In this document: in pieces, positions 7,489 through 22,153 of the stretch
Position numbering within the stretch: the first letter of the stretch is position 1
How the letters are laid out: the number at the start of each line of letters is the position of its first letter
Assembly (NCBI GenBank): GCA_003141895.1
Contig: PLNT01000003.1
Coordinates: forward strand, 122,040-186,039
Length of the DNA stretch: 64,000 nucleotides
DNA from: Bacteroidales bacterium
GTDB lineage: Bacteria; Bacteroidota; Bacteroidia; Bacteroidales; VadinHA17
Reading direction: 5' to 3'
Notes under the pieces: generated by a model
Told to the model about the DNA's origin: nothing
What the model saw: the letters and a program-made list of their open reading frames with translations, nothing else
Database searches by the model: none
Made by a program: the position numbers and the translations under genes

Positions 7489-7962
7489 ATGAAGATCGCA
7501 TTATTACAGACGGGTAGGACCACAGATAGAAATATGTCAGAGCTGGTTGATCTTTATTCAAAACGGATAAAAAAATATATTTCTTTTGAAATTATTACTC
7601 TTCCGGAACTAAAGAATACCAAAAATATGCCCGTTCAGGAGCAACAGGTGAAAGAGGCAACCAAAATTATTCAGTCGGTTTCTGATGATGATTATATTGT
7701 TTTACTTGATGAGAGGGGAAAAGAATACAGAACAATCGAATTTTCATCTTTTTTAGAGAAAGCATTTCTTCTTCCGAAAAAACGTATCATTTTCGTAATT
7801 GGAGGACCATGGGGATTCTCTGACTCAGTTTACGCAAAGGCAGATCAAAAAATTTCCCTCTCAAAAATGACCTTTTCGCATCAGATGGTACGATTATTGT
7901 TTCTTGAACAGCTTTACAGGGTATTTACAATTATTAAGGGAGAGCCCTATCATCATGAATAA
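7489..7962 (+). CDS. rlmH: 23S rRNA (pseudouridine1915-N3)-methyltransferase
   Basis: FVIGGPWGFSDSVYAKADQKISLSKMTFSHQMVRLLFLEQLYRVFTIIKGEPYHHE. Confidence 0.97.
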   Translation: MKIALLQTGRTTDRNMSELVDLYSKRIKKYISFEIITLPELKNTKNMPVQEQQVKEATKIIQSVSDDDYIVLLDERGKEYRTIEFSSFLEKAFLLPKKRIIFVIGGPWGFSDSVYAKADQKISLSKMTFSHQMVRLLFLEQLYRVFTIIKGEPYHHE

Positions 7963-7973
7963 GCTTTGATCAC

Positions 7974-10900
7974 TTGTGTATGAAAACACACCGCTATCCT
8001 ATACTTCTCTCAATTCTGACATTAGTGCTTATACTGCTGGCACTTGCAGCAGAATCAGTTTATTTCAGCGATTTTGAATACCGGTTCAGAACAAAGATGT
8101 TAAATAAGACTCTTGCATTGAAAGAAACAGTTATGGAAGAATGTCTTAATGAAATTAAACCTGTTCTGGCTAATGTAAATCACACCGGATCAATCTCTGA
8201 GACAGACCTTTTTTCAAAAGCGGAAAAGAATAAAATAAGTTTGCTGGAATATGTAGACAAAAAACTAATCTATTGGTCGGATAATGAATTTGATGTTCCT
8301 TCAGATTATATTGATTCACTTTTTAATAAGCCCCTGGAATTTTTACAGAATGGATGGTTTCTTACTAAGTCTATTCAGGCCAGAAATGAAAAAATAATTG
8401 CGCTGCTCAGATTACGTACTGATTACAGCTTTGAAAATAGTTTTATTAAGAGCGGCTTTGAAACGGAGTTTGCTATACCTGATAATGTAGGTCTGAGTAC
8501 AGATAAAAAAGCTTCTGAATATCACATTTACAATAAAGAAGGCACTTTCCTGTTTTCACTAACCTTTCCGGAAGTAAAAGGCAGTACATGTTTTATTCTG
8601 GTACCATTGTGTCTTTGGACAGGAACCTTTTTTCTCGTCATTGTTCTTATATTCAGGATAGTTAAGTTGCTGGATAACAGAAAAAAATGTCTGCTTGGTA
8701 TCGGCATTTCCTTTATTACATTCAGTTCAATTTATCTGATTATACTTCTGACCGGGAAACCTCTCGCTTTTTTTCGGACTGAACTTTTTTCCCCTTACAG
8801 ATTTAACCTGAACGGGCTAATTCCATCCCTCGGGCATCTCTTAGTCCTAAGTATCCTTGGTGCAGCTTTCTTTACTATCCTTTATCGCTATTTTCCGGTT
8901 AAAGAGATCAAAGATAAGTCTTCAGGTATTAGCTACCTGATACTTTCGTTATTGCTTATTGTTGGCTCTCTTATATTATTCTCATACCAGTGGATTTTCG
9001 GACAACTTGTGTCATCTTCCAATATTAATTTCGAGACATATAAAGTATTGGAAATGAATATGTTCACTTTTATGGGGATGGCATCCGTTTTTCTACTTCT
9101 GTTAATACCTGTGTTTTATTTTTTTAAAATATTTAAGACAGCCAGACAATTAGAAACCAAAAAAGTCTTTCTCTCAATAATATCATCTTCATTTGTATTG
9201 GTACTTCTTCTCTATAAGTCGCCTGGAACTCTCATTCCTATAGTTATTTTTTATTTGTTATTGACCACAGGATTGTGGATATTATCGAAGAGAATCGTCG
9301 GATATTTTAATCTTTCTGTAATATTTTCCCTTGTTTCGGGAGTCTATTTTCTGTATATCATCACAATTCTTTCTGAAAAGAGAATTACTGAAAACCTTAA
9401 GATTCAGGCAGTATCATTATCAACTGAACATGACCCGGAAGCTGAACATCTTCTTCTTGATCTGTGGCCCGTTATTGAGAAAGATACATTACTTGATGTG
9501 ATGATGAAAGTAGATTATTTTGATAAGGACAATTTCGAAAAAATTTCTAATTATTTGCAGGAAACATATTTTACCGGATTCTGGAAGGATTATCATTTTA
9601 GTCTTGTTTTGTGCCAAAATGATCAGCCATTAATAATAGAAACCGAAAGATATCAGAACTGTTTCAGTTTTTTTGATGAACGGATAAAACGCGACGGGCG
9701 AAAACTGACAGGAACTAATTTTTATTATATTGATAATCAGGGAGGGAGGTCTGATTATATAGGCAGGATATTCTATAAATCTGATAAAAATCTGACAAAT
9801 GGTTTGTTTATTGAATTATATAATGATGTTAATATATTCCAGCCTGGTTATTCAGAATTGCTGGTTGATAAAAGGTATCATGGTTACGCAGGATTAAAGA
9901 ATTATTCCTTTGCCAAGTATATAAATGGAGAAATGGTTCTGAGTACCGGTGATTTTCCTTTCGACAAGACAGATGTTGAATATATAGGCAAATTTTCAGA
10001 TTACAGGATTTTCAGAACGGATGGATTTAGGCATGTTCTTTTAAAAAACGGGAATACAACGGTAATAATTACCCGGCCGAATCTTACTCCCGGAGACATT
10101 GTTATCTCTTTTGCGTATATTTTTGCTTTCATTCTTTTATTTTCCAATATGGTCATTTTATTAATAAGAAGACCGGTTGTGAGAAGCATGAATCTTTTCA
10201 ATTTTCGACAAAAACTGCAATTCTCCTACATTGGAATTTTGTTGTTTTCCTTTATTCTTATTGGCTTTGTAGTAGCATATATTACTATCTGGCAATACAG
10301 GGCAAAACATTATGAGAATATTAAAGAAAAACTTAATTCGGTTTACATGGAACTCGACAGTAAGCTCTCAATGGAAAAGTATCTTTCTAACGACTGGAAA
10401 GGCGCAGGATATACTTCACTAAATGATTTGCTGATAAAACTCTCGAATGTTTTTAATACAGACATCAATCTTTATAATATTAACGGATTTCTAATTGCAA
10501 CGTCGCGACAGGAAATTTTTGACCGTGATCTTACGGCTCCCAGGATAAACAATACAGCTTTCACTAATATGAAATTGGCAAGAAATGAATATTATCAGAA
10601 AGAAAAAATCGGCACACTTGAGTATTTGTCGGCATATTCCCCATTTTACAATACTGATAATAAAGTAATTGCATATCTTGATCTGCCGTATTTCCGTATG
10701 CAAAGTGTTTTGGCAAAGGAGATTTCAAATCTGGTAGTTGCCGTTAGTAATTTTACTCTTCTTTTGATTCTTATAACGATGAGCCTGGCGGTCTTTATCA
10801 GCGGACGGCTTACTTCCCCTCTGGCAATGCTTGGCAAAGGTCTTGCCACTGTGGGAGTGGGAAAGAAAAGTGAACACTTAACATATAAAGGGAATGACGA

Positions 10901-11669
10901 GATCGGGCAGCTTGTGAAGCAATATAACAGGATGGTGGATGAAATAGAGGAAAGCACTCATAAATTAGCTGACTCCGAGAGAGAATATGCATGGAGAGAA
11001 ATGGCTAAACAAATTGCGCATGAGATAAAGAATCCGCTTACTCCTATGAAACTAAATGTGCAGCAACTGCTTAAATCGTGGAATGATAAGGTTCCGGGGT
11101 TTGAAAAAACCATTGAACGCTTCACAAAGAACCAGATCGAGTATATTGACAATCTGTCCTCAATAGCTTCAGCTTTCTCATCATTTGCAAAGATGCCGGT
11201 CACAAATCCTGTTGATTTAGATATTCTCGACCAGATAAAGATAACTCTTGAACTGTTTAAAAATACTGATAATGTAACCTTCCTGGTTCATTGGCCCCAT
11301 GAATCTAAAATTGTTATTTATGCTGATAAAGAGCAGCTTAATGGTGTATTTTCAAATCTTATCAAAAACGGAATTCAGGCTATTCCTCCGGGACGCAAAG
11401 GAGTCATTTCCTTAAGCCTCGAAGTAAAGAGTGATAAGGTGTTAATTTCAATATCGGATAACGGTTCCGGAATACCGGCCACATTGAGGAAGAATCTGTT
11501 TACTCCTAATTTTACAACTAAGACATCTGGAACGGGATTGGGATTGTCAATAGCCAGAAAATATATAGAGAATGCCAATGGAAGGATATGGTTTGAATCG
11601 GAGGTTGATAAGGGTTCAGTATTTTATTTTGAACTGCCTGTGAAATATACTGTTGAAAAGCCCGTATGA
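7974..11669 (+). CDS. Large multi-TM NtrY-like sensor histidine kinase
   Basis: HAMP-like region, EMAKQIAHEIKNPLTPMKLNVQQLL phospho-acceptor, HATPase N/G boxes; many TM helices. Confidence 0.92.
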   Translation: MCMKTHRYPILLSILTLVLILLALAAESVYFSDFEYRFRTKMLNKTLALKETVMEECLNEIKPVLANVNHTGSISETDLFSKAEKNKISLLEYVDKKLIYWSDNEFDVPSDYIDSLFNKPLEFLQNGWFLTKSIQARNEKIIALLRLRTDYSFENSFIKSGFETEFAIPDNVGLSTDKKASEYHIYNKEGTFLFSLTFPEVKGSTCFILVPLCLWTGTFFLVIVLIFRIVKLLDNRKKCLLGIGISFITFSSIYLIILLTGKPLAFFRTELFSPYRFNLNGLIPSLGHLLVLSILGAAFFTILYRYFPVKEIKDKSSGISYLILSLLLIVGSLILFSYQWIFGQLVSSSNINFETYKVLEMNMFTFMGMASVFLLLLIPVFYFFKIFKTARQLETKKVFLSIISSSFVLVLLLYKSPGTLIPIVIFYLLLTTGLWILSKRIVGYFNLSVIFSLVSGVYFLYIITILSEKRITENLKIQAVSLSTEHDPEAEHLLLDLWPVIEKDTLLDVMMKVDYFDKDNFEKISNYLQETYFTGFWKDYHFSLVLCQNDQPLIIETERYQNCFSFFDERIKRDGRKLTGTNFYYIDNQGGRSDYIGRIFYKSDKNLTNGLFIELYNDVNIFQPGYSELLVDKRYHGYAGLKNYSFAKYINGEMVLSTGDFPFDKTDVEYIGKFSDYRIFRTDGFRHVLLKNGNTTVIITRPNLTPGDIVISFAYIFAFILLFSNMVILLIRRPVVRSMNLFNFRQKLQFSYIGILLFSFILIGFVVAYITIWQYRAKHYENIKEKLNSVYMELDSKLSMEKYLSNDWKGAGYTSLNDLLIKLSNVFNTDINLYNINGFLIATSRQEIFDRDLTAPRINNTAFTNMKLARNEYYQKEKIGTLEYLSAYSPFYNTDNKVIAYLDLPYFRMQSVLAKEISNLVVAVSNFTLLLILITMSLAVFISGRLTSPLAMLGKGLATVGVGKKSEHLTYKGNDEIGQLVKQYNRMVDEIEESTHKLADSEREYAWREMAKQIAHEIKNPLTPMKLNVQQLLKSWNDKVPGFEKTIERFTKNQIEYIDNLSSIASAFSSFAKMPVTNPVDLDILDQIKITLELFKNTDNVTFLVHWPHESKIVIYADKEQLNGVFSNLIKNGIQAIPPGRKGVISLSLEVKSDKVLISISDNGSGIPATLRKNLFTPNFTTKTSGTGLGLSIARKYIENANGRIWFESEVDKGSVFYFELPVKYTVEKPV

Positions 11670-11699: not shown

Positions 11700-11727
11700 T
11701 AATCAGATTGCTTTAGTAATCTGATTA
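11700..11727. terminator. Hairpin after histidine kinase gene (possible terminator)
   Basis: Perfect 10-bp inverted repeat TAATCAGATT-N8-AATCTGATTA; no clear T-run. Confidence 0.4.
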
Positions 11728-11826
11728 TCATTGACTTTCAGCTGATTCCATCAGTTTAATTCATTTTAACCATATCTCTGCAAAAATATACAAGATTATA
11801 GTTATATTAGCAGACCTGATATTCGA

Positions 11827-14800
11827 ATGATGACTGGCAATTTTTTGCACCATTGCAAGAGACTTATTATCATTTTGCTGTTACTTGTTTTTAGCAGTGG
11901 CTTGTCATTTTCCCAAAAAATGCTACATGACCTTCTTGAGAAACAGCCAAGTAGACACGTTGTCTCCATTGCAAGCGGTTCAGTTACCGTAGAAGGCAAT
12001 GTTTTAGGATTTAACGTGGGGGATACTGTACTTTTGATTCAAATGCAGGGGGTGAAGGTTTACACTTCCCCGTTTGGTGGTTATGTGGATAAATTCGGAG
12101 AACCGGGTTTATATGAATTTCTAACAGTCTCAGGTGTGGATCCAGCTTTAAAAAAGATAACATTCTTGAATAGTATTATTAAATCTTATGATGAAAAAGG
12201 TAATGTACAGGTAGTTCGAGTTCCCTATTATAATAGTGCTGAAGTGAATGGAGTTTTAACCTGTAATGCTTGGGATGAGGATCCCTTATTTCCAAAAACC
12301 GGTGGTGTTCTTGCATTGACAATTGGTCGGACAATTACTCTTACAGCCGATATTGATGTAACAGGGAAAGGTTTTAAAGGGGGAAGTGTTTTTTCAGGCG
12401 CTTCGGGAATTTGTCAGGTAACCGATCTGTCTTATCAAGGGGACGTTTATCCCGAGGGGGATTTTAATTCAGGATATAAAGGAGAAGGCGTAGCAAATTA
12501 CGTTCAATCAGGTGTTCCGATTTCTCCCGGCTATGTTAAAGGTCAGGGAGCAAACTTTAACGGAGGAGGGGGAGGAAACGGGAAATTTTCCGGAGGCGGA
12601 GGTGGAGCACATAGAGGTGAGGGCGGTATAGGGGGTAACGAGGATTCCGATCCCTGTCCCTCTTTGCCAATACACCCTTATCCCGGAGGCGCAGGTGGCG
12701 TCAAAGCAGAACAGCCTTCCAGCTTGTTAGATAGGATTTTTCTTGGAGGTGGAGGAGGTGCCTCAACCACATCAACTGGTACTATAAACCCCGGAGGCAA
12801 TGGAGGCGGAATCATAATAATTGTAACTGATAACATAATCGGGAAGGGGGGTAATATTATTTCAAGTGGGAACGATGGTGGCCTTCCAATCGGAGTTGCA
12901 GGTGCAGGAGGCGGAGGTGCCGGCGGTTCGATAGTTCTTTCTCTTAACAGCTATGGTCAGGATCCTTTGAGCCTTTCTGTCACAGGAGGTAATGGCGGCA
13001 ATAGTAATGGTACAGGTGGTGAAGGTGGTGGTGGTGGTGGCGGTCTGATCTGGCTTAGCACAAACACAACTCCAAATGTTGAGACTGTTCTGAATCCGGG
13101 TTTAAGAGGTTATAGTCTTGCCACTGCGGGTGAGATAAAGACAGGTTTTAAAGCCGTCCTCAATGGATTCTTATATAATTCGATCCGGTCTTCAGGTTCA
13201 GGGGATACTATCGACTTCGTCTGTTCAAATATGCTTCAACCAAGGCTCACCGGGACGTTACCATTAGGAGGAAATCCGCCTTACACTTATAAGTGGGAAA
13301 AGAGTTATGATAATTTGTCATGGGAACCTCCTCTTTATATAGGAAATGACTCTGTAAATTATTTTCCAAATACAGTTGAAACCAGTACAGTTTATTATAA
13401 AAGAACAGTCATATCCTCTGCGCCTTCTCCCCTTACGGACTACAGTAAAGTTGTTAAAATTGTTGTACAGCCTTTCATTAAGAATAATATTGTCGGTAAT
13501 TCCGATATTATCTGTTTTGCACAAAATCCACCTGCATTCACTTCAAAAGCCACTTTGCTGGACGGTAATGGAGTGTATAGTTATGTATGGAAAGTAAGTC
13601 ATGACAACTTACATTTTAGTCTTCCTTCAAATGCTTATGATGCAGAAGGGTATACTCCTCCTCCTTCCCTAACCATGACATCATGGTACAGACGTACTGT
13701 AATATCAGGTAGTTGCATTGATTCTACGGCAATTGTTAAAATTACAGTTCTTGATACAATAAAAAGTAATAAAATACTCAATTCGCCCCCGGTCATCTGC
13801 TACGGAACAGCTTTTGCTAATCTGACAGCCACGACAACCGCTTCTGCACCGGCTTTGTCAGGAGGAGATAATACATACCGTTTCAAATGGGAGAGCAATA
13901 TAAACGGACTGGGGTGGGCATTGGCACCCGGGGTGAGCAACGGGCCTGGTTATGATCCGGTTGAATTGCCACAACGGATTCCATCAAATCAATATGTTTA
14001 CAGACGTATAGTTTATTCAGGAACTGCAGATGTATGTGCATCTATAAGTAATTCAGTACTTCTGAAAGATTTCCCTGTCATTACAAACAATACCATTGCA
14101 CCTGTACCCGCTATCTGTTCCGGTTCTAAACCTGTAGACATAGTCGGATCGGTATCATCCAATCTTTCAGGTGGGAATTTAATTTATACATATAGCTGGG
14201 AAGACAGTACAAAGTTACACTCATGGACTCTTATTACTGGTGCCTCTTTATCAGATTTTCCGACTTCAATTTTGTATGATACAACAAGTTACAGGCGAAT
14301 TGTCACAGCAGTTTGTACAGATTTCAGTAAATCGATACAGGTAGTTGTACATAAACCAATTCTGAATAACAAGATAACCCTCCTTACGGGCGGGGTAACG
14401 CAAACTATATGCAACAACCAGGCACCGGTCTCTTTCCAGGGAACACAACCAGCCGGCGGGACAAATATACCTGGAGATTATGCTTATATGTGGAAATATT
14501 CAACTGACAATTCAGTGTTTACTTCTGTCCCAACCGGAGGTACCGGGATCAATTATTCGCCTCCTTCACTTGCATCAACAACATACTATAAACGGGAAGT
14601 TACCTCAGGTAAGTGCGCAGTTATCAGTGATCCTTTAACTGTCACAGTCCTTCCGGATATAACAAACAATTCGATATCAGGTACTCCAAAAGTTTGCTAT
14701 AGTCTTATACCTGGGAACATAACCGGGGGCATTTTATCAGGAGGATCAGGGGCATATAAGTATTTATGGGAGCAGAGTACTGACGGAGGGATTAACTGGT

Positions 14801-15510
14801 CACCGGCAGCATTAACAAACAGTTCATCTGATTATCAGCCTCCGGCACTCACAATTACCACTAAATACCGGAGAACTGTTTCATCAGGTGTGAACGACTG
14901 TTGTGAGAGTGTCTCGAATAACTTTGATATTGATATCGACCCTTTACCTGTAAGCGCAATTAATGCCGGACCCGATACTATTATCTACTCGGTGGAAAAA
15001 TTGTATCACATGAAAGCTATTGATCCTGCCCTGGCTGGCAATGGAGAAACAGGAACCTGGGCCCTGCTTAACGGAGGGACCAGTACAATTGACGACACGA
15101 CAAAATTTAACACTGTGGTCAGGAATCTTTCGGAAGGGAAGAATTCATTTTTGTGGACTTTGCACAGAGGTCCATGCAAACTGAAGGATTCTGTTGACAT
15201 TGAACTGCTGAAAGATTTCATACCCCAGGGTTTTTCTCCCAATGGCGATGCCTGGAATAATACATTTGTTATCGAGGGCTTGAGTCCCGATGATCAGCAT
15301 ATTGATATTAGAATTGTCAATGGAGCAGGCACTGAAGTATATTCTTTCAGCGGCGAAGGTGAAACACTCAGAGAATGGAAAGGTTGGGACGGAAAGAATT
15401 CTGCCGGTAATGATCTGCCTGAGGGAACATATTATTATATGCTTAAAATAACTGGCAAATCAGGACAGGTTTTAAAGAGAAGTGGATTTGTTGTTCTTAA
15501 AAGATATTGA
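11827..15510 (+). CDS. Large secreted glycine-rich repeat protein with gliding-motility-associated (CHU_C/type B) C-terminal domain, probable T9SS cargo
   Basis: Signal peptide, Gly-rich tracts, tandem ~90-100 aa modules, C-terminal FIPQGFSPNGDAWNNTFVIEGL...YYYMLKITGKSGQVLKRSGFVVLKRY. Confidence 0.9.
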   Translation: MMTGNFLHHCKRLIIILLLLVFSSGLSFSQKMLHDLLEKQPSRHVVSIASGSVTVEGNVLGFNVGDTVLLIQMQGVKVYTSPFGGYVDKFGEPGLYEFLTVSGVDPALKKITFLNSIIKSYDEKGNVQVVRVPYYNSAEVNGVLTCNAWDEDPLFPKTGGVLALTIGRTITLTADIDVTGKGFKGGSVFSGASGICQVTDLSYQGDVYPEGDFNSGYKGEGVANYVQSGVPISPGYVKGQGANFNGGGGGNGKFSGGGGGAHRGEGGIGGNEDSDPCPSLPIHPYPGGAGGVKAEQPSSLLDRIFLGGGGGASTTSTGTINPGGNGGGIIIIVTDNIIGKGGNIISSGNDGGLPIGVAGAGGGGAGGSIVLSLNSYGQDPLSLSVTGGNGGNSNGTGGEGGGGGGGLIWLSTNTTPNVETVLNPGLRGYSLATAGEIKTGFKAVLNGFLYNSIRSSGSGDTIDFVCSNMLQPRLTGTLPLGGNPPYTYKWEKSYDNLSWEPPLYIGNDSVNYFPNTVETSTVYYKRTVISSAPSPLTDYSKVVKIVVQPFIKNNIVGNSDIICFAQNPPAFTSKATLLDGNGVYSYVWKVSHDNLHFSLPSNAYDAEGYTPPPSLTMTSWYRRTVISGSCIDSTAIVKITVLDTIKSNKILNSPPVICYGTAFANLTATTTASAPALSGGDNTYRFKWESNINGLGWALAPGVSNGPGYDPVELPQRIPSNQYVYRRIVYSGTADVCASISNSVLLKDFPVITNNTIAPVPAICSGSKPVDIVGSVSSNLSGGNLIYTYSWEDSTKLHSWTLITGASLSDFPTSILYDTTSYRRIVTAVCTDFSKSIQVVVHKPILNNKITLLTGGVTQTICNNQAPVSFQGTQPAGGTNIPGDYAYMWKYSTDNSVFTSVPTGGTGINYSPPSLASTTYYKREVTSGKCAVISDPLTVTVLPDITNNSISGTPKVCYSLIPGNITGGILSGGSGAYKYLWEQSTDGGINWSPAALTNSSSDYQPPALTITTKYRRTVSSGVNDCCESVSNNFDIDIDPLPVSAINAGPDTIIYSVEKLYHMKAIDPALAGNGETGTWALLNGGTSTIDDTTKFNTVVRNLSEGKNSFLWTLHRGPCKLKDSVDIELLKDFIPQGFSPNGDAWNNTFVIEGLSPDDQHIDIRIVNGAGTEVYSFSGEGETLREWKGWDGKNSAGNDLPEGTYYYMLKITGKSGQVLKRSGFVVLKRY

Positions 15511-16514
15511 TGTCACGGTTATTACATTTTTATAGTGATCTTCAACGCATGAATAAAAGTAAAATAGTATTCTTTTTTTGTTTTTTATGGGTATTCACCA
15601 GTGTGCCGGGACAGGCAGTTCCTGATTCGACAGGTATAAGCCTGGGCTACCCCGTTTACAGTCAATATCTTCAGAATGGTCTTTTAATAAATCCTGCCTA
15701 TGCAGGTTCGCGTGGTGCTTTGAGTACTTTTTTATCATACAGGATTCAATGGATGGGGATACCCGATGCTCCTGTATTTCAGACTATTTCACTTAATGCC
15801 CCAATGAAAAACGACAAGGTAGGATTAGGATTAATGGCACAGTTTATGAAATTCGGATTCACTAAATCGCAAAGTATTTATGCTAGTTATGCCTATCATA
15901 TAAGATTGGGGAGAGGAAGGATTTCATTCGGCTTAAAAGGTGGATTTGACAGATCCAATACTGATTATTCGGGCATACTTACCACTGATAAAAATGATCC
16001 GGTATTTATTTCGTCTGACAAACCTTATTTTCTCCCAAATGTCGGAGCAGGTATATATTACTTCAGTGAAAAACTATTCGCAGGAGTATCTGTACCTTCT
16101 TTTCTCAGCTATAGAAAAAATACCTCAACAGGTTCTGTTGAAGCCTATCACAGTTTTGGTAATTATGACCTGATTTTTTCGGGCGGAGGTCTCATTACTT
16201 TATCAGAAGGTTTCAAATTTAAACCTTCTGTGCTAATTGATTACTCACTTGAAAAGACAAAGAAGCTGACACAATTTGACATAAATGGGAATTTTATAAT
16301 TGAAGATCTAATTTGGGTCGGTGGGTCATGGAGGACATCTGAGCAAGTAGCGGTCGGAATTCTTCAGGTTCAGCTCAACCCCCAGCTAATGTTCGGGTTT
16401 TCTTACGACTATCCTGTGGGAAAGATGAATTCCTATTCAAAAGGATCGAGTGAATTTATTTTGCGTTACGAGTTCGGATATAAGGTAAGTGCTGCTAATC
16501 CGAGATACTTCTGA
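15507..16514 (+). CDS. PorP/SprF family type IX secretion system membrane protein
   Basis: QYLQNGLLINPAYAGSRGALSTFLSYRIQWMGIPDAPVFQTISLNAPMKNDKVGLGL; 4-bp ATGA overlap with upstream gene. Confidence 0.93.
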   Translation: MMSRLLHFYSDLQRMNKSKIVFFFCFLWVFTSVPGQAVPDSTGISLGYPVYSQYLQNGLLINPAYAGSRGALSTFLSYRIQWMGIPDAPVFQTISLNAPMKNDKVGLGLMAQFMKFGFTKSQSIYASYAYHIRLGRGRISFGLKGGFDRSNTDYSGILTTDKNDPVFISSDKPYFLPNVGAGIYYFSEKLFAGVSVPSFLSYRKNTSTGSVEAYHSFGNYDLIFSGGGLITLSEGFKFKPSVLIDYSLEKTKKLTQFDINGNFIIEDLIWVGGSWRTSEQVAVGILQVQLNPQLMFGFSYDYPVGKMNSYSKGSSEFILRYEFGYKVSAANPRYF

Positions 16515-16516
16515 CA

Positions 16517-17941
16517 ATGCTAAAACGGATTTTATATATTATCATCTTACTGCTTGCATGTTTCGTTGCCATGCAGGTAAATGCACAGCAGCCTTCCGTT
16601 TATAAAGTCAAAAAAATGCCATTCAATACCTTTGGTTTCAGTAATATATCACCCGTTATTGTAAAAGACGGTATCTTATTTTGCTCCGACAAACGGTTCA
16701 GCGGATTTAAAGACCGTACAGCATTCGATGGAAGGCGATTATACAATATTTATTTTGCCGGAATAAAAGATACTTCATTTGAGAAACCCCTGGCAATAAA
16801 GAGTGAGCGAAGTAATAAATTTAATAATGGCCCTCTTTGCATTGCACCCGATGGCAAAACAATCTATTTTACGAGCGAGACCGAAACAGGAAAAATAACC
16901 TCCAACAGAAAGTTCAAAAATCATAGTGGTATTTTTATTGGTGAACTCTCGGGTTCAGAGGTGGCGTCATTGCATCCTTTTAAATACAATGATCCTGATT
17001 ATGATGTTGGTCAGCCATCAATAAGCAAAGACGGCAAGTATCTGTTTTTTGCCTCGGATAAACCTGGTGGAAACGGCGGATCAGATTTATATTATTGTGA
17101 GTTCATAAACGGGGAATGGTCCCAACCCGTTAATCTTGGACCGAAGGTTAACTCTTCAGGATCTGAGAATTATCCATTTATGCATCAGTCGGGGAAATTA
17201 TATTTTACGTCTGACCGACCCGGAGGATTTGGCAAAATGGATCTTTATTTCACCTCTTTGAATAATGGGTCGTGGGGTGTTCCGGTTCATTTGCCTGAAC
17301 CAATCAATTCCCAATCGGATGATTTTGCATTTGTTGCGTCGGGTGATCTTCAGACTGGTTACTTTTCTTCAAACCGGGGCAATGAGGATGATATATACAA
17401 ATTCACCTCAACAATAATCAGAAAAGTAGTTTGTGATACACTTGAAGAAAATAATTACTGCTACCGTTTCTTTGAAGAGAATGCTGTTAAATATGATACA
17501 ATGCCCTTCCGTTATGAATGGAAATTCGGCGACGGAGATATGGCTGCCGGTGCGGTTGTCGAACATTGTTTTAAGGACCCGGGAACATATACGGTATCGC
17601 TCGACGTTGTGAACCTTATTACAAAGGAGGTCACATATAATGAAAAGACAGAAACTGTAGTTGTGACAGAAATTGAACAACCATATATTTCCGTTCCTGA
17701 CAGGGTTGAAGCTAATAAAAATATATCATTGAGTGCTGACAGTACGAATCTTCCAGGCTGGAAGATATCACGTTACTATTGGAACTTTGGAGATGAAACA
17801 ATTGCTGTCGGGAAAGATGTAACCAAGAGTTACGAAAAACCTGGGACATATAATATTCAACTCATTGTGACTGCTGAACCGGAACCGGGATTAAGTGTAA
17901 GGGAGGCATGTATTTCAAAAAATATAATTGTTTTACATTAA
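16517..17941 (+). CDS. PD40 (WD40-like) repeat protein with two PKD domains, T9SS-associated
   Basis: SKDGKYLFFASDKPGGNGGSDLYYCE, KLYFTSDRPGGFGKMDLYF; YEWKFGDGD and YYWNFGDE PKD motifs; no OmpA-like C-terminal domain visible. Confidence 0.85.
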   Translation: MLKRILYIIILLLACFVAMQVNAQQPSVYKVKKMPFNTFGFSNISPVIVKDGILFCSDKRFSGFKDRTAFDGRRLYNIYFAGIKDTSFEKPLAIKSERSNKFNNGPLCIAPDGKTIYFTSETETGKITSNRKFKNHSGIFIGELSGSEVASLHPFKYNDPDYDVGQPSISKDGKYLFFASDKPGGNGGSDLYYCEFINGEWSQPVNLGPKVNSSGSENYPFMHQSGKLYFTSDRPGGFGKMDLYFTSLNNGSWGVPVHLPEPINSQSDDFAFVASGDLQTGYFSSNRGNEDDIYKFTSTIIRKVVCDTLEENNYCYRFFEENAVKYDTMPFRYEWKFGDGDMAAGAVVEHCFKDPGTYTVSLDVVNLITKEVTYNEKTETVVVTEIEQPYISVPDRVEANKNISLSADSTNLPGWKISRYYWNFGDETIAVGKDVTKSYEKPGTYNIQLIVTAEPEPGLSVREACISKNIIVLH

Positions 17942-17974
17942 CCTTGATTCCGAAAATAACTAATTTTAGCATTA

Positions 17975-18979
17975 ATGAAATTGAGAAAATCAAAATATAA
18001 AATACTTCTCCTCATAGCTTTCCTGGTTTTTTCTTTTTTTACGAGATTATCCGGACAACCTGTGCCCGGGAAAGATGAAAATATTCCATTCCTTGTAACT
18101 TTCGGGAAAGACGGTTTGACTTCATGGGGGGATGCTGATTTTTTTCAGATATTTTTCTTTAGCATACCAAAAGATTACACCAAACCTTTTTATATAAGAG
18201 TGTTTGACCCCGATTGCGGTGGAGAAAATGACGAGATACAAGGTGAATTTAATACCAAAACCAAATTTTCAGTTTATGGTGGCAGAGGAGTCGATCCGGA
18301 AAAAAATGAAGAATCAAGAGGCCTTCTTAAAGGAGAAAATTATAAAACAGGCAACCTGTTGGCATCTAAAATATTTGGAAATGAAGCGAAGTATGATAAT
18401 AAGTACTATTCATTCGGACCCTTCAATCCTGCAGAAGGAGATTTTAATGTAAAATGGAATAGTAATATGTTCAAAATCCTTTGTGAGGGAATAAGTGGTG
18501 ATGATGGAAATCTTTACAGATATTTTCTGAGCAGTGATCCGGACAATAACATACCTATTGAGGGCGCAAACGCTTTTACATATGCTTACCATTTCAGAAT
18601 GTGGAACGATTTCAAAAGTGTATCTCACATTTATCCATATGTCGACACTGGTGTTGTGTATATTAAACAAAGGAACTTTGACTGGGATAATGATGGTAGT
18701 ATTTTGGTTGTCTCAAGATATAAACAGGGAATTTCAGTGCCAGTTTCAAATGAGGATAACTGGAGTGAATCGAATATTCCCATTGAACCCCCTGAAGTGG
18801 GATCTTCACTTGACTTTCAATTTCATAAGAGACAAGGCGTACTGGTTAAAAATAATAACGTTGTTATGACACTTCAAAACCAGAGAGGTGATGCAGTGAA
18901 ATTCTTCAGTTCTCCAATTGGTGGTGTACCTATGTATCAGCCTAAAATGGTAGTAGAGAAAGTGAAGCCCAAGAAATAA
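17975..18979 (+). CDS. Secreted protein of unknown function in T9SS-associated operon
   Basis: Signal peptide; 334 aa with no motif I recognise; 33 bp after upstream gene, 12 bp before the next. Confidence 0.75.
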   Translation: MKLRKSKYKILLLIAFLVFSFFTRLSGQPVPGKDENIPFLVTFGKDGLTSWGDADFFQIFFFSIPKDYTKPFYIRVFDPDCGGENDEIQGEFNTKTKFSVYGGRGVDPEKNEESRGLLKGENYKTGNLLASKIFGNEAKYDNKYYSFGPFNPAEGDFNVKWNSNMFKILCEGISGDDGNLYRYFLSSDPDNNIPIEGANAFTYAYHFRMWNDFKSVSHIYPYVDTGVVYIKQRNFDWDNDGSILVVSRYKQGISVPVSNEDNWSESNIPIEPPEVGSSLDFQFHKRQGVLVKNNNVVMTLQNQRGDAVKFFSSPIGGVPMYQPKMVVEKVKPKK

Positions 18980-18991
18980 CTGAAACCTGAC

Positions 18992-21900
18992 ATGAGATTT
19001 TATATCAATTGTAAAATACTAATCTGTACCATCGGGTTCATATTTGTATATAGTCCGTTATCAATGGGTCAGACATTCAGTTTCGTAAATTATGGGTCTG
19101 AAAAGAATAACATTAGTGGTTTCGTCTATACCATTGTTCAATCAAATGATGGATTTTTGTGGGTCGGGACCGCTAATGGATTAAGCCGGTTTGACGGATA
19201 TAGTTTTTTCCCGGTACAATATCCCGATTCAGCATCCGGAAGATATCCTACAAAAAGTCTTAAAGATAAAAACGGAGTTCTGTGGTTTGGTTGCAGCGAT
19301 GGTTCAGTATGGTATGAAAAAGGAAATAAACTAATTGCGGTAGCACTGTCAAATTCAAAAAGTATAAGTGAGCTTTTAGAAGGACCTGAAGGTCTGATCT
19401 ACGTAATTCCTCAAGCCAGAGCTATCTATTCAATTAATCCGCAGAAACCGGAAGATATTCATAAATATCCAATCTCATCTGAACCAGCCTTGTATTCTGG
19501 TTCTTTCACAAGTTCAGGTAAATTGCTTATAGGCACTCAGGAGAATCTTCTTGTTTGCAAGATTGAGAAAGATTCAGTAGCAATAATTAAAGTGATAAAT
19601 GGATCTGACTCGTACGGGATTACCTCAATACACTCCACAGCAGATAAATCACGATTCATCGTGGGAACTGACGGGAATGGATTTTTTCAATTGAAAATAT
19701 CAGATAAAGGCGGGGAATTGATTCGTCTCCCGGATTCAGAGAAATTTAATTCACTTAATATTCAATCAATCACTGAGGACTCTGAAAAATCTTTCTGGGT
19801 TTCAACAACCGGATCGGGAGTTGTACAGTTTGAGCTGACAGAGAATTTTGAAAGAATGAAATCAGCAAAATTGTACGATGTAAACTCCGGATTGAATGGC
19901 AATAATGTAAAGACGGTTTATCAGGATTTTGAGGGCAATTATTGGTTCGGTTTATACGGTGAGGGCATATCAATGCTGACCTCGTACGCGATCACCTATT
20001 ATTCGCCGGGTAAAAGTTCACAGGAGAATAATATACTGTTTGTTAAGAATTTCGAGAACAATTATCTTCTTGGAACACCAACAGGTTTCCATTTATTTAA
20101 TTCTCTTACCGGAAAGTCACTCTCATTCACCGATCTCAGCAATCAGGTAGGACATGCAGAAATTAAATCTTATTTCCTCGATCATGATAATAATCTATGG
20201 ATCGGGACAAACGGAAATGGTCTTTTTGTCAGGAATAGTAAAGGATCAGTTCGAAAATTTTATAGGTCGGGGGATACTGGAGCAGATGACATTAAAGACA
20301 TACAGATAGATAATAAAAATATCTGGCTCGCTACGACAAATGGTGTGATCATTCTGGATAAAGCGGGAAATACCAGGAAAAAATTTGATATTGATAATGG
20401 ATTGCCCCACAACAGCATTAATAAAATTTTGCTGACAGATGAGGGAGGCGCCTATATTGGCACCGAGACCGATAAGTTATATAAAATTGATTCCGATTTT
20501 CATATTTCGACCGGCAATTCGGTCATGACAGGAAGCACGCGGAACAGGATACTTTCATTCTCCAAATCAGGTGATGGAGCAATATGGGTAGCAACTGAAG
20601 GCAATGGCATATTTAAATTTCTTGGTGATTCAGTTTCTGTAATATCCCGCTCAAATGATTTGATGTCAAATTATTGCTACAGTATTCTGTCAGATGCTGA
20701 CAACGATATATGGGTAGGTCACAATAAGGGATTTTCCAAGTTTAATTCCACTACAGGTACTGTAAGGATTTTAGGTAGTGATTTTGCTAAAATCGGTGTC
20801 TGTAACGCCAGTGGTATGTTTGAGTCTGATGACAAAAAAATCTTTATTGGGACAACCGAAGGTTTAATAATTTATGACAGAATAAAAGAACGGAAGAACG
20901 AAATAGCTCCATTCAATAATATTAATACGATAGAGATAAACGATGTGCCATATCCATACCAGCCATCATTTGTACTTCCATATATGAAGTATAAAATAAA
21001 GATCTATTATTCTGGAATAAATTTCAGTTCACCGGATAAGGTTTATTACAGTTCTTTTCTCGATAATTTTGATCTTGACTGGAGCAAAATGACTACCTCG
21101 CGGGAGGTATTATACAGTCTTAGCGATGGTAAGTACAATTTTAGTCTGATCTCTATAAATCAGGATGGTTTATCACAGGGAGTTCCAGTCTCATTCTCCA
21201 TTTTAATTAAAAAACCTTTTTACAGAACGTGGTGGTTCATTCTTTGCTGTATGGCAGCTTTAACTGGTATTATTCTACTGATAATCAGGGAAAGGGATAA
21301 ATCGCAGAAGAAAATTCAGGAATATCTTGAAAATGAACTTGATGCAAGGACGAGCGTTGTGATGAAGCAAAAAGGAGAAATCGAACTTCAGAACATTGAA
21401 ATCACTGACAGTATAAACTATGCCAAGAGGATTCAATCATCCATCCTGCCTGATATTAGCAAGCTGAAGGATACATTTAAGGATGCATTCATCCTTTTTC
21501 ATCCGCGTGATATTGTCAGCGGTGATTTTTACTGGTTTGATAAACTTGAAGAAGATAAGTTCATACTGGTGTGCGCTGATTCAACCGGACATGGAGTTCC
21601 CGGAGCCTTTATGTCGATGATTGGCTCCACCCTTTTACAGGATATCGTTACAAGGAAACATATTTCAAAGCCATCAGAAATCCTTAGCCTGCTCGATAAA
21701 CAAATTTTTTCCACACTTAACCAGAATGTTGAATTAGGTGTTTCAAATGATGGTATGGATATGGTTGTATGTGAATTCAGTATCTCAACACGCCATATCA
21801 GATTCGCATCCGCAATGCGGCCAGTTATTCTTGTTCTCGATGGTGAACCGTTCTATATAAAAGGTAACAGGTCATCTGTTGGTGGTGAATCAGTAGTGGA

Positions 21901-22153
21901 AAAGTACTTCGATGATCAGGAATATTATCTTAAAGAAGGAGATACAATTTACCTGTTCTCTGACGGCTTGCCTGACCAGTTTGGTGGGACGGATGGTAAA
22001 AAACTGAAGATTGCCAGACTGAAACGATTGATAGAGCAGATATCAAAACTTCCAATGGAAGAACAGAAGGAAGCAATGACGAAATTCTACTTCGACTGGA
22101 AAGGCGAATATGACCAGGTAGACGATGTTCTGCTTATGGGAGTAAGGGTCTGA
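18992..22153 (+). CDS. Two-component regulator-type beta-propeller / Y_Y_Y / TM / SpoIIE (PP2C) phosphatase
   Basis: Propeller repeats (FLWVGTANGLSRFDG, NLWIGTNGNGLF, AIWVATEGNGIF), TM, then SGDFYWFDK, CADSTGHGVPGAFMSMIG, YLFSDGLPDQFGG. Confidence 0.93.
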   Translation: MRFYINCKILICTIGFIFVYSPLSMGQTFSFVNYGSEKNNISGFVYTIVQSNDGFLWVGTANGLSRFDGYSFFPVQYPDSASGRYPTKSLKDKNGVLWFGCSDGSVWYEKGNKLIAVALSNSKSISELLEGPEGLIYVIPQARAIYSINPQKPEDIHKYPISSEPALYSGSFTSSGKLLIGTQENLLVCKIEKDSVAIIKVINGSDSYGITSIHSTADKSRFIVGTDGNGFFQLKISDKGGELIRLPDSEKFNSLNIQSITEDSEKSFWVSTTGSGVVQFELTENFERMKSAKLYDVNSGLNGNNVKTVYQDFEGNYWFGLYGEGISMLTSYAITYYSPGKSSQENNILFVKNFENNYLLGTPTGFHLFNSLTGKSLSFTDLSNQVGHAEIKSYFLDHDNNLWIGTNGNGLFVRNSKGSVRKFYRSGDTGADDIKDIQIDNKNIWLATTNGVIILDKAGNTRKKFDIDNGLPHNSINKILLTDEGGAYIGTETDKLYKIDSDFHISTGNSVMTGSTRNRILSFSKSGDGAIWVATEGNGIFKFLGDSVSVISRSNDLMSNYCYSILSDADNDIWVGHNKGFSKFNSTTGTVRILGSDFAKIGVCNASGMFESDDKKIFIGTTEGLIIYDRIKERKNEIAPFNNINTIEINDVPYPYQPSFVLPYMKYKIKIYYSGINFSSPDKVYYSSFLDNFDLDWSKMTTSREVLYSLSDGKYNFSLISINQDGLSQGVPVSFSILIKKPFYRTWWFILCCMAALTGIILLIIRERDKSQKKIQEYLENELDARTSVVMKQKGEIELQNIEITDSINYAKRIQSSILPDISKLKDTFKDAFILFHPRDIVSGDFYWFDKLEEDKFILVCADSTGHGVPGAFMSMIGSTLLQDIVTRKHISKPSEILSLLDKQIFSTLNQNVELGVSNDGMDMVVCEFSISTRHIRFASAMRPVILVLDGEPFYIKGNRSSVGGESVVEKYFDDQEYYLKEGDTIYLFSDGLPDQFGGTDGKKLKIARLKRLIEQISKLPMEEQKEAMTKFYFDWKGEYDQVDDVLLMGVRV

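Follow-up and report, generated by a model that had tools for sequence, protein, structure and literature searches.

A five-gene operon in a 64,000-nucleotide stretch of a Bacteroidales bacterium genome (GCA_003141895.1, contig PLNT01000003.1; hereafter the window) on balance appears to encode a T9SS-coupled, trans-envelope signalling unit with a partner-switching output of the SiaC type. By computational analysis, the five genes are inherited together, their domain anatomy can be laid out, the last of them carries a SiaA-class output that retains its active-site residues, and the genome encodes both SiaB and SiaC. From these results we infer the physical contacts within the unit, the state that it senses, SiaC as its substrate, and a downstream target. 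The features of the locus are as follows:

11803..11810, + strand: putative promoter −7-like element TATATTAG, upstream of the cargo gene (motif enrichment across loci)
11827..15510, + strand: gene 1, T9SS type B cargo (1227 aa) with an AgmC-like N-terminal domain and a CHU_C C-terminal domain
15507..16514, + strand: gene 2, PorP/SprF family, outer-membrane anchor/shuttle (PF11751 and TIGR03519, both above cut-off)
16517..17941, + strand: gene 3, PD40 propeller with two PKD domains, PorE-like, without OmpA (profile scans)
17975..18979, + strand: gene 4 (P4), periplasmic two-domain all-beta protein of a new family (no family match, conserved invariant residues, AF2)
18992..22153, + strand: gene 5, HTCS-type propeller sensor, transmembrane (TM) segment, coiled coil and SiaA-type PP2C (profiles, structure alignments, hydropathy)

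An earlier note on this DNA had described five same-strand open reading frames between 11827 and 22153. All five were found at these coordinates on the + strand, and profile scans agree with the domains it had assigned (CHU_C; PorP_SprF; PD40 with PKD; none for gene 4; Reg_prop with SpoIIE). The intergenic spacings it listed (−4, +2, +33 and +12 nt) are reproduced when PorP is read from TTG 15507, but the first is probably +38 rather than −4: ATG 15549 opens a normal signal peptide and many PorP relatives are called from the matching position (~320 aa, gap ~40), making ATG 15549 the likely start. Upstream of the operon (window 7489-11669) are rlmH and a gene for a 1231-aa NtrY-like histidine kinase (7974-11669), both of them kept at the main locus. 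The kinase was considered as a sixth member of the unit and rejected, as it is missing from the relocated copies described below. A perfect inverted repeat, TAATCAGATT-gctttagt-AATCTGATTA, occupies positions 11700-11727 between the kinase stop codon and the cargo gene; the same repeat did not turn up in those relatives that were examined for it.

Judged by their domain content, genes 1–3 are a cargo-PorP-PorE-type triad from which the peptidoglycan anchor is missing in the window copy. Gene 1 has the C-terminal domain of a type B cargo (CHU_C, PF13585, residues 1132-1223, 60.2 bits against a cut-off of 27; TIGR04131 scored 31.1, slightly below its cut-off of 35) and, by hydropathy, the N-terminal hydrophobic stretch of a signal peptide. 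SprA is encoded in the same genome. Residues 58-423 of gene 1 are glycine-rich and match the N-terminal model of the myxobacterial gliding protein AgmC at 160 bits, below the cut-off of 275. Gene 2 belongs to the PorP/SprF family by two profiles (PF11751, 201.7 bits against a cut-off of 22.3; TIGR03519, 204.9 against 90.55). Gene 3 combines PD40 with two PKD domains, and its propeller part is recognised by the profiles for PorE and CHU_0125. The PorE match (NF052230) covers positions 132-427 of 648 at 158.9 bits, a PorE-type propeller scoring below the full-length cut-off of 600. Profile scans of gene 3 found no TPR, CRD or C-terminal OmpA peptidoglycan-binding domain, with the two PKD domains in their stead, and we therefore call it PorE-like rather than PorE. 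Three relatives of gene 3 (in loci L042, L045 and L075) retain the OmpA end.

A complex of type B cargo, PorP and PorE has been demonstrated biochemically for PG1035-PorP-PorE of P. gingivalis (PMC9143113), and in F. johnsoniae each of five operons encodes a type B substrate together with the cognate SprF-like shuttle and a homologue of PorE (PMC12618676). Together with the propeller match of gene 3 and the OmpA end of its relatives, this precedent places genes 1–3 in a known kind of triad. Like PG1035-PorP-PorE and Fjoh_3952-3951-3950, the window operon encodes a cargo with a type B C-terminal domain, PorP/SprF directly downstream and then a PorE-like propeller. It differs in the absence of TPR, CRD and OmpA from gene 3, and in the addition of two genes, P4 and the propeller-PP2C.

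In profile and structure comparisons, gene 5 is an HTCS-type sensor joined to a SiaA-class PP2C domain with its active-site residues intact. The profile scan identified Reg_prop and SpoIIE domains, and hydropathy analysis one signal peptide and one TM segment (residues 745-768). A search of solved structures gave rise to two kinds of relative, HTCS sensors and SiaA. The sensor half aligns to the propeller/Y_Y_Y ectodomain of HTCS 4A2L over residues 14-746, and also to 3OTT. The output half aligns to SiaA (6K4E) over residues 778-1052 with E=4e-30; SiaA was the sole PP2C among the PDB matches, which included no RsbU or SpoIIE structure. At least 84 of 87 homologues retain equivalents of the published SiaA active-site residues (D457, D474, G477, D600, G601 and D653; PMC7647112). 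The match to the SiaA equivalog NF038263 is confined to the C-terminal part (165.6 bits, below the cut-off of 700) and the sensor half is a propeller, so gene 5 has a SiaA-type output but is not SiaA. With HTCS proteins such as 4A2L it shares the periplasmic Reg_prop propeller ectodomain and the single TM segment. In place of the histidine kinase, receiver and AraC modules of those proteins, none of which was found in gene 5, the C-terminus is a SpoIIE/PP2C phosphatase. The window genome encodes 11 SpoIIE proteins, of which nine are SiaA-like and two have no SiaA match. Another propeller-SiaA-like phosphatase gene lies directly 3′ of a caspase-like (Peptidase_C14) gene on contig 9 of the same genome (L183:5075-10227).

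The alignments to 4A2L and 3OTT also fit a different reading, in which P4 forms with the propeller phosphatase an HTCS-like ligand sensor of the usual kind, for instance one for a glycan captured by the adhesin. The operon would then only co-express the surface protein with a sensor for the substrate that both share, and the sensor would not read the PorP complex. Given the likeness to HTCS glycan sensors, a small ligand could bind the ectodomain instead of the cargo complex. We consider this reading unlikely, on evidence from the inheritance of the unit given below.

P4 is a new, periplasmic family of two-domain beta proteins. It has no Pfam or NCBIfam match, no PDB sequence match and, by profile scan, no T9SS C-terminal domain; it does have a signal peptide and many invariant D/N/G/W residues. 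The best AF2 model is all-beta with two domains (pLDDT 85, pTM 0.82). Foldseek searches (two AF2 models, two runs) returned only generic tandem beta-sandwich ectodomains, among them SID1, PHM, DeCLIC, PNGase F and ColG, at query TM-scores of ~0.25 or less, and we therefore read no function from the fold. An enzymatic role was rejected, there being no catalytic family match and only these generic structural matches, as was an internal duplication, for which hhalign of the two halves found nothing. Distant relatives of P4 form the N-terminus of PKD-rich proteins of ~1600 aa, with 15 PKD stretches in L076. These genes belong to distant members of the phylum (L076, L077, L080, L081, L082, L086 and L087), where their neighbours encode a FecR protein and a HAMP-containing cyclase or histidine kinase; a response regulator-SpoIIE is nearby in L076, L080 and L082, and the FecR neighbour in L076 has LysM. 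P4 thus recurs in envelope-signalling settings. P4-like domains are also found beside dCache kinases and cyclases without PorP, as would be expected if P4 served an ordinary ligand sensor.

A dedicated five-gene unit, as the earlier note envisaged, is strongly supported: gene order is kept across families, the window genome holds a paralogous set, other copies have relocated, and the gene trees agree. A search of named genomes gave 205 stretches encoding a P4 relative, of which the best 80 were used; their hosts are nearly all uncultured Bacteroidales/Bacteroidota. P4 is present in 37 of 60 relatives and in 14 of 395 genomes of the phylum. Among the best 80 of 205 stretches, spoIIE lies directly 3′ of P4 in 70 of 72 loci, and the order cargo, PorP, PD40/PKD, P4, SpoIIE is kept in 51 of the 52 named-species loci with enough flank, all 51 in uncultured Bacteroidales/Bacteroidota. 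This order is too regular to be chance, and the co-conservation that the note had asked for is present. Within the window genome itself, all five genes recur on another contig (L039), diverged but in the same order. Departures from the arrangement include a locus without porP and cargo (L162), one without spoIIE (L158), one with two cargo-porP pairs (L045) and a rearranged locus (L042).

Most main-locus copies lie between the NtrY-like kinase (upstream) and der/era (downstream), and vertical inheritance at such a stable site could mimic functional linkage. The five genes would then be co-regulated neighbours without a shared mechanism, as the constant flanks and the restriction of all known hosts to related Bacteroidales might suggest. 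The diverged copy in the window genome argues against this, as do 14 five-gene loci away from the kinase/der-era site, to which the flanking genes were not carried along. Relocated and main-locus copies separate in the P4, spoIIE and porP trees; only in the PD40 tree, under midpoint rooting, is the split not clean. We regard mere neighbourhood as improbable, and a coupled five-gene unit with a SiaA-class output as well supported by the comparative data.

Patristic distances between module genes correlate at 0.84-0.93, the tightest pair being P4-spoIIE at 0.93, and P4 and spoIIE can stand alone as a pair (L169). Both observations are in keeping with the signalling unit and would also suit an ordinary ligand sensor travelling with the triad. 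Against the latter, 51 of 52 loci, and the relocated copies as well, keep P4-spoIIE together with cargo, PorP and gene 3, even as the architecture of the cargo varies among them.

Motif evidence is consistent with transcription from upstream of the cargo gene. In 38 of 50 loci, against 5.6 expected from shuffles, a TA..TT[TA]G motif lies upstream of the cargo, mostly by 21-30 nt; in the same motif scan of the loci it was absent or near chance before porP and PD40. Before spoIIE a promoter motif was found in 3 of 75 loci (3.5 expected), so that this gene gives no sign of a promoter of its own; independent transcription of the SpoIIE gene, which the earlier note held would count against its proposal, is not indicated by the motifs. 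A weaker excess than at the cargo was detected in close relatives upstream of P4 (18 of 79 loci, 6.3 expected); an internal promoter is possible there, from which P4-spoIIE could also be transcribed separately from genes 1–3. In the window, right before P4 (17941-17975), lies a TAATTTTAGC-like element that belongs to the same class as the putative promoter element of the cargo. Scans for sigma-70 promoters and for terminators did not rise above chance, and the strict TTTG-N-TANNTTTG motif had no match within the operon.

The likely substrate of the gene 5 PP2C domain, judged from its class and from genome content, is a SiaC-family phosphoprotein. In Pseudomonas aeruginosa, SiaA dephosphorylates SiaC at T68 in opposition to the kinase SiaB (PMC7647112), and SiaC controls a partner (PMC8457831). 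The window genome encodes ten SiaC, four SiaB and three STAS proteins. Neither siaB nor siaC lies in the five-gene operon, so the substrate was assigned by genome-level correlation. Among 24 further families of the same order, SiaB and SiaC both occur in all 10 genomes that have four or more SpoIIE proteins, and both are missing from the 14 that have two or fewer (Fisher p = 5e-7; Spearman 0.89; these statistics ignore phylogeny, and the families share ancestry). The three of these 24 outgroup families that have P4 are all SiaC-positive. Since SpoIIE often occurs without SiaC in other parts of the phylum, the link is with the SiaA-like class and not with SpoIIE domains generally. Related Bacteroidales have siaA-siaB-siaC operons: L204, where the phosphatase shares the propeller-PP2C architecture of gene 5, L205, and L209, the last in a genome that also carries the five-gene operon. 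All eight SiaC copies that were aligned have S or T at the phosphosite.

The unit shares with SiaABC of P. aeruginosa (PMC7647112, PMC8457831) a coiled coil and PP2C output with the catalytic residues kept, as well as the SiaB and SiaC families in the genome and siaA-siaB-siaC operons in relatives. It differs in its HTCS-type propeller sensor, in the location of siaB and siaC outside the operon, and in copy number (nine SiaA-like and ten SiaC copies). A protein of ~1020-1034 aa adjoins siaB/siaC in four loci (L190:5016-8087, L191:2631-5735, L203:903-3959 and L209:1337-4423); the two that were scanned have ABC ATPase and ABC-2 membrane domains, with TerB as well in L209. This ABC-transporter-like protein is a candidate SiaC target.

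The earlier note had looked to STAS proteins for the SpoIIE substrate. STAS proteins are the classical substrates of SpoIIE-family phosphatases, and the three in the window genome make such a substrate available. The five-gene unit might then act on a STAS/RsbV-type anti-sigma-factor antagonist and control a sigma factor; SiaC itself is structurally STAS-like (PMC7647112, PMC8457831). We think this very doubtful, and rejected STAS/RsbV as first-choice substrate: the PP2C domain matches SiaA and no RsbU/SpoIIE structure, the presence of SiaB/SiaC follows SpoIIE expansion exactly across the 24 families, and paralogues occur in operons with siaB-siaC. A SiaC-family protein is thus the favoured substrate.

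In the mechanism that we propose, the T9SS would export gene 1 and the cognate PorP (gene 2) would keep it on the cell surface, with the PorE-like propeller protein (gene 3) beneath PorP in the periplasm. P4 would serve as a periplasmic adaptor or ligand protein. The gene 5 ectodomain would read the state of the assembly (cargo present, absent, loaded or ligand-bound), and this reading would set the activity of the cytoplasmic PP2C domain. The phosphatase would dephosphorylate one of the cell's SiaC-family phosphoproteins, opposing the SiaB kinases, and SiaC would then bind or release its target by partner switching. We infer the surface-sensing role of the operon from this arrangement. More specifically, the operon could be an inside-reporting system, in which the occupancy or loading of the PorP-anchored cargo is read through the PorE-like protein and P4 by the SiaA-type phosphatase and passed to the SiaB/SiaC network; we offer this version tentatively.

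The operon had been put forward as an undescribed system. This does not hold for genes 1–3, which are of the known cargo-PorP-PorE kind; the new parts are the P4 family and the phosphatase linked to the triad. Within the literature searched, which left out most subscription journals, we found no account of SpoIIE with PorP or the T9SS, or of SpoIIE with partner switching in Bacteroidetes, and, with the same incomplete coverage, none of a T9SS cargo-anchor complex coupled to a PP2C/SiaC switch. The operon introduces the periplasmic P4 family and points to a SiaABC-type switch network that has expanded in many Bacteroidales families, for which the ABC-transporter-like protein adjoining siaB/siaC offers a candidate target. 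Work on the T9SS has explained export and anchoring and has said little about how the cell learns that a surface assembly is in place. The operon points to an undescribed route by which information on the condition of the surface would reach the cytoplasm, and a conserved operon of cargo, anchor and transmembrane phosphatase makes the cell's knowledge of its surface assembly testable.
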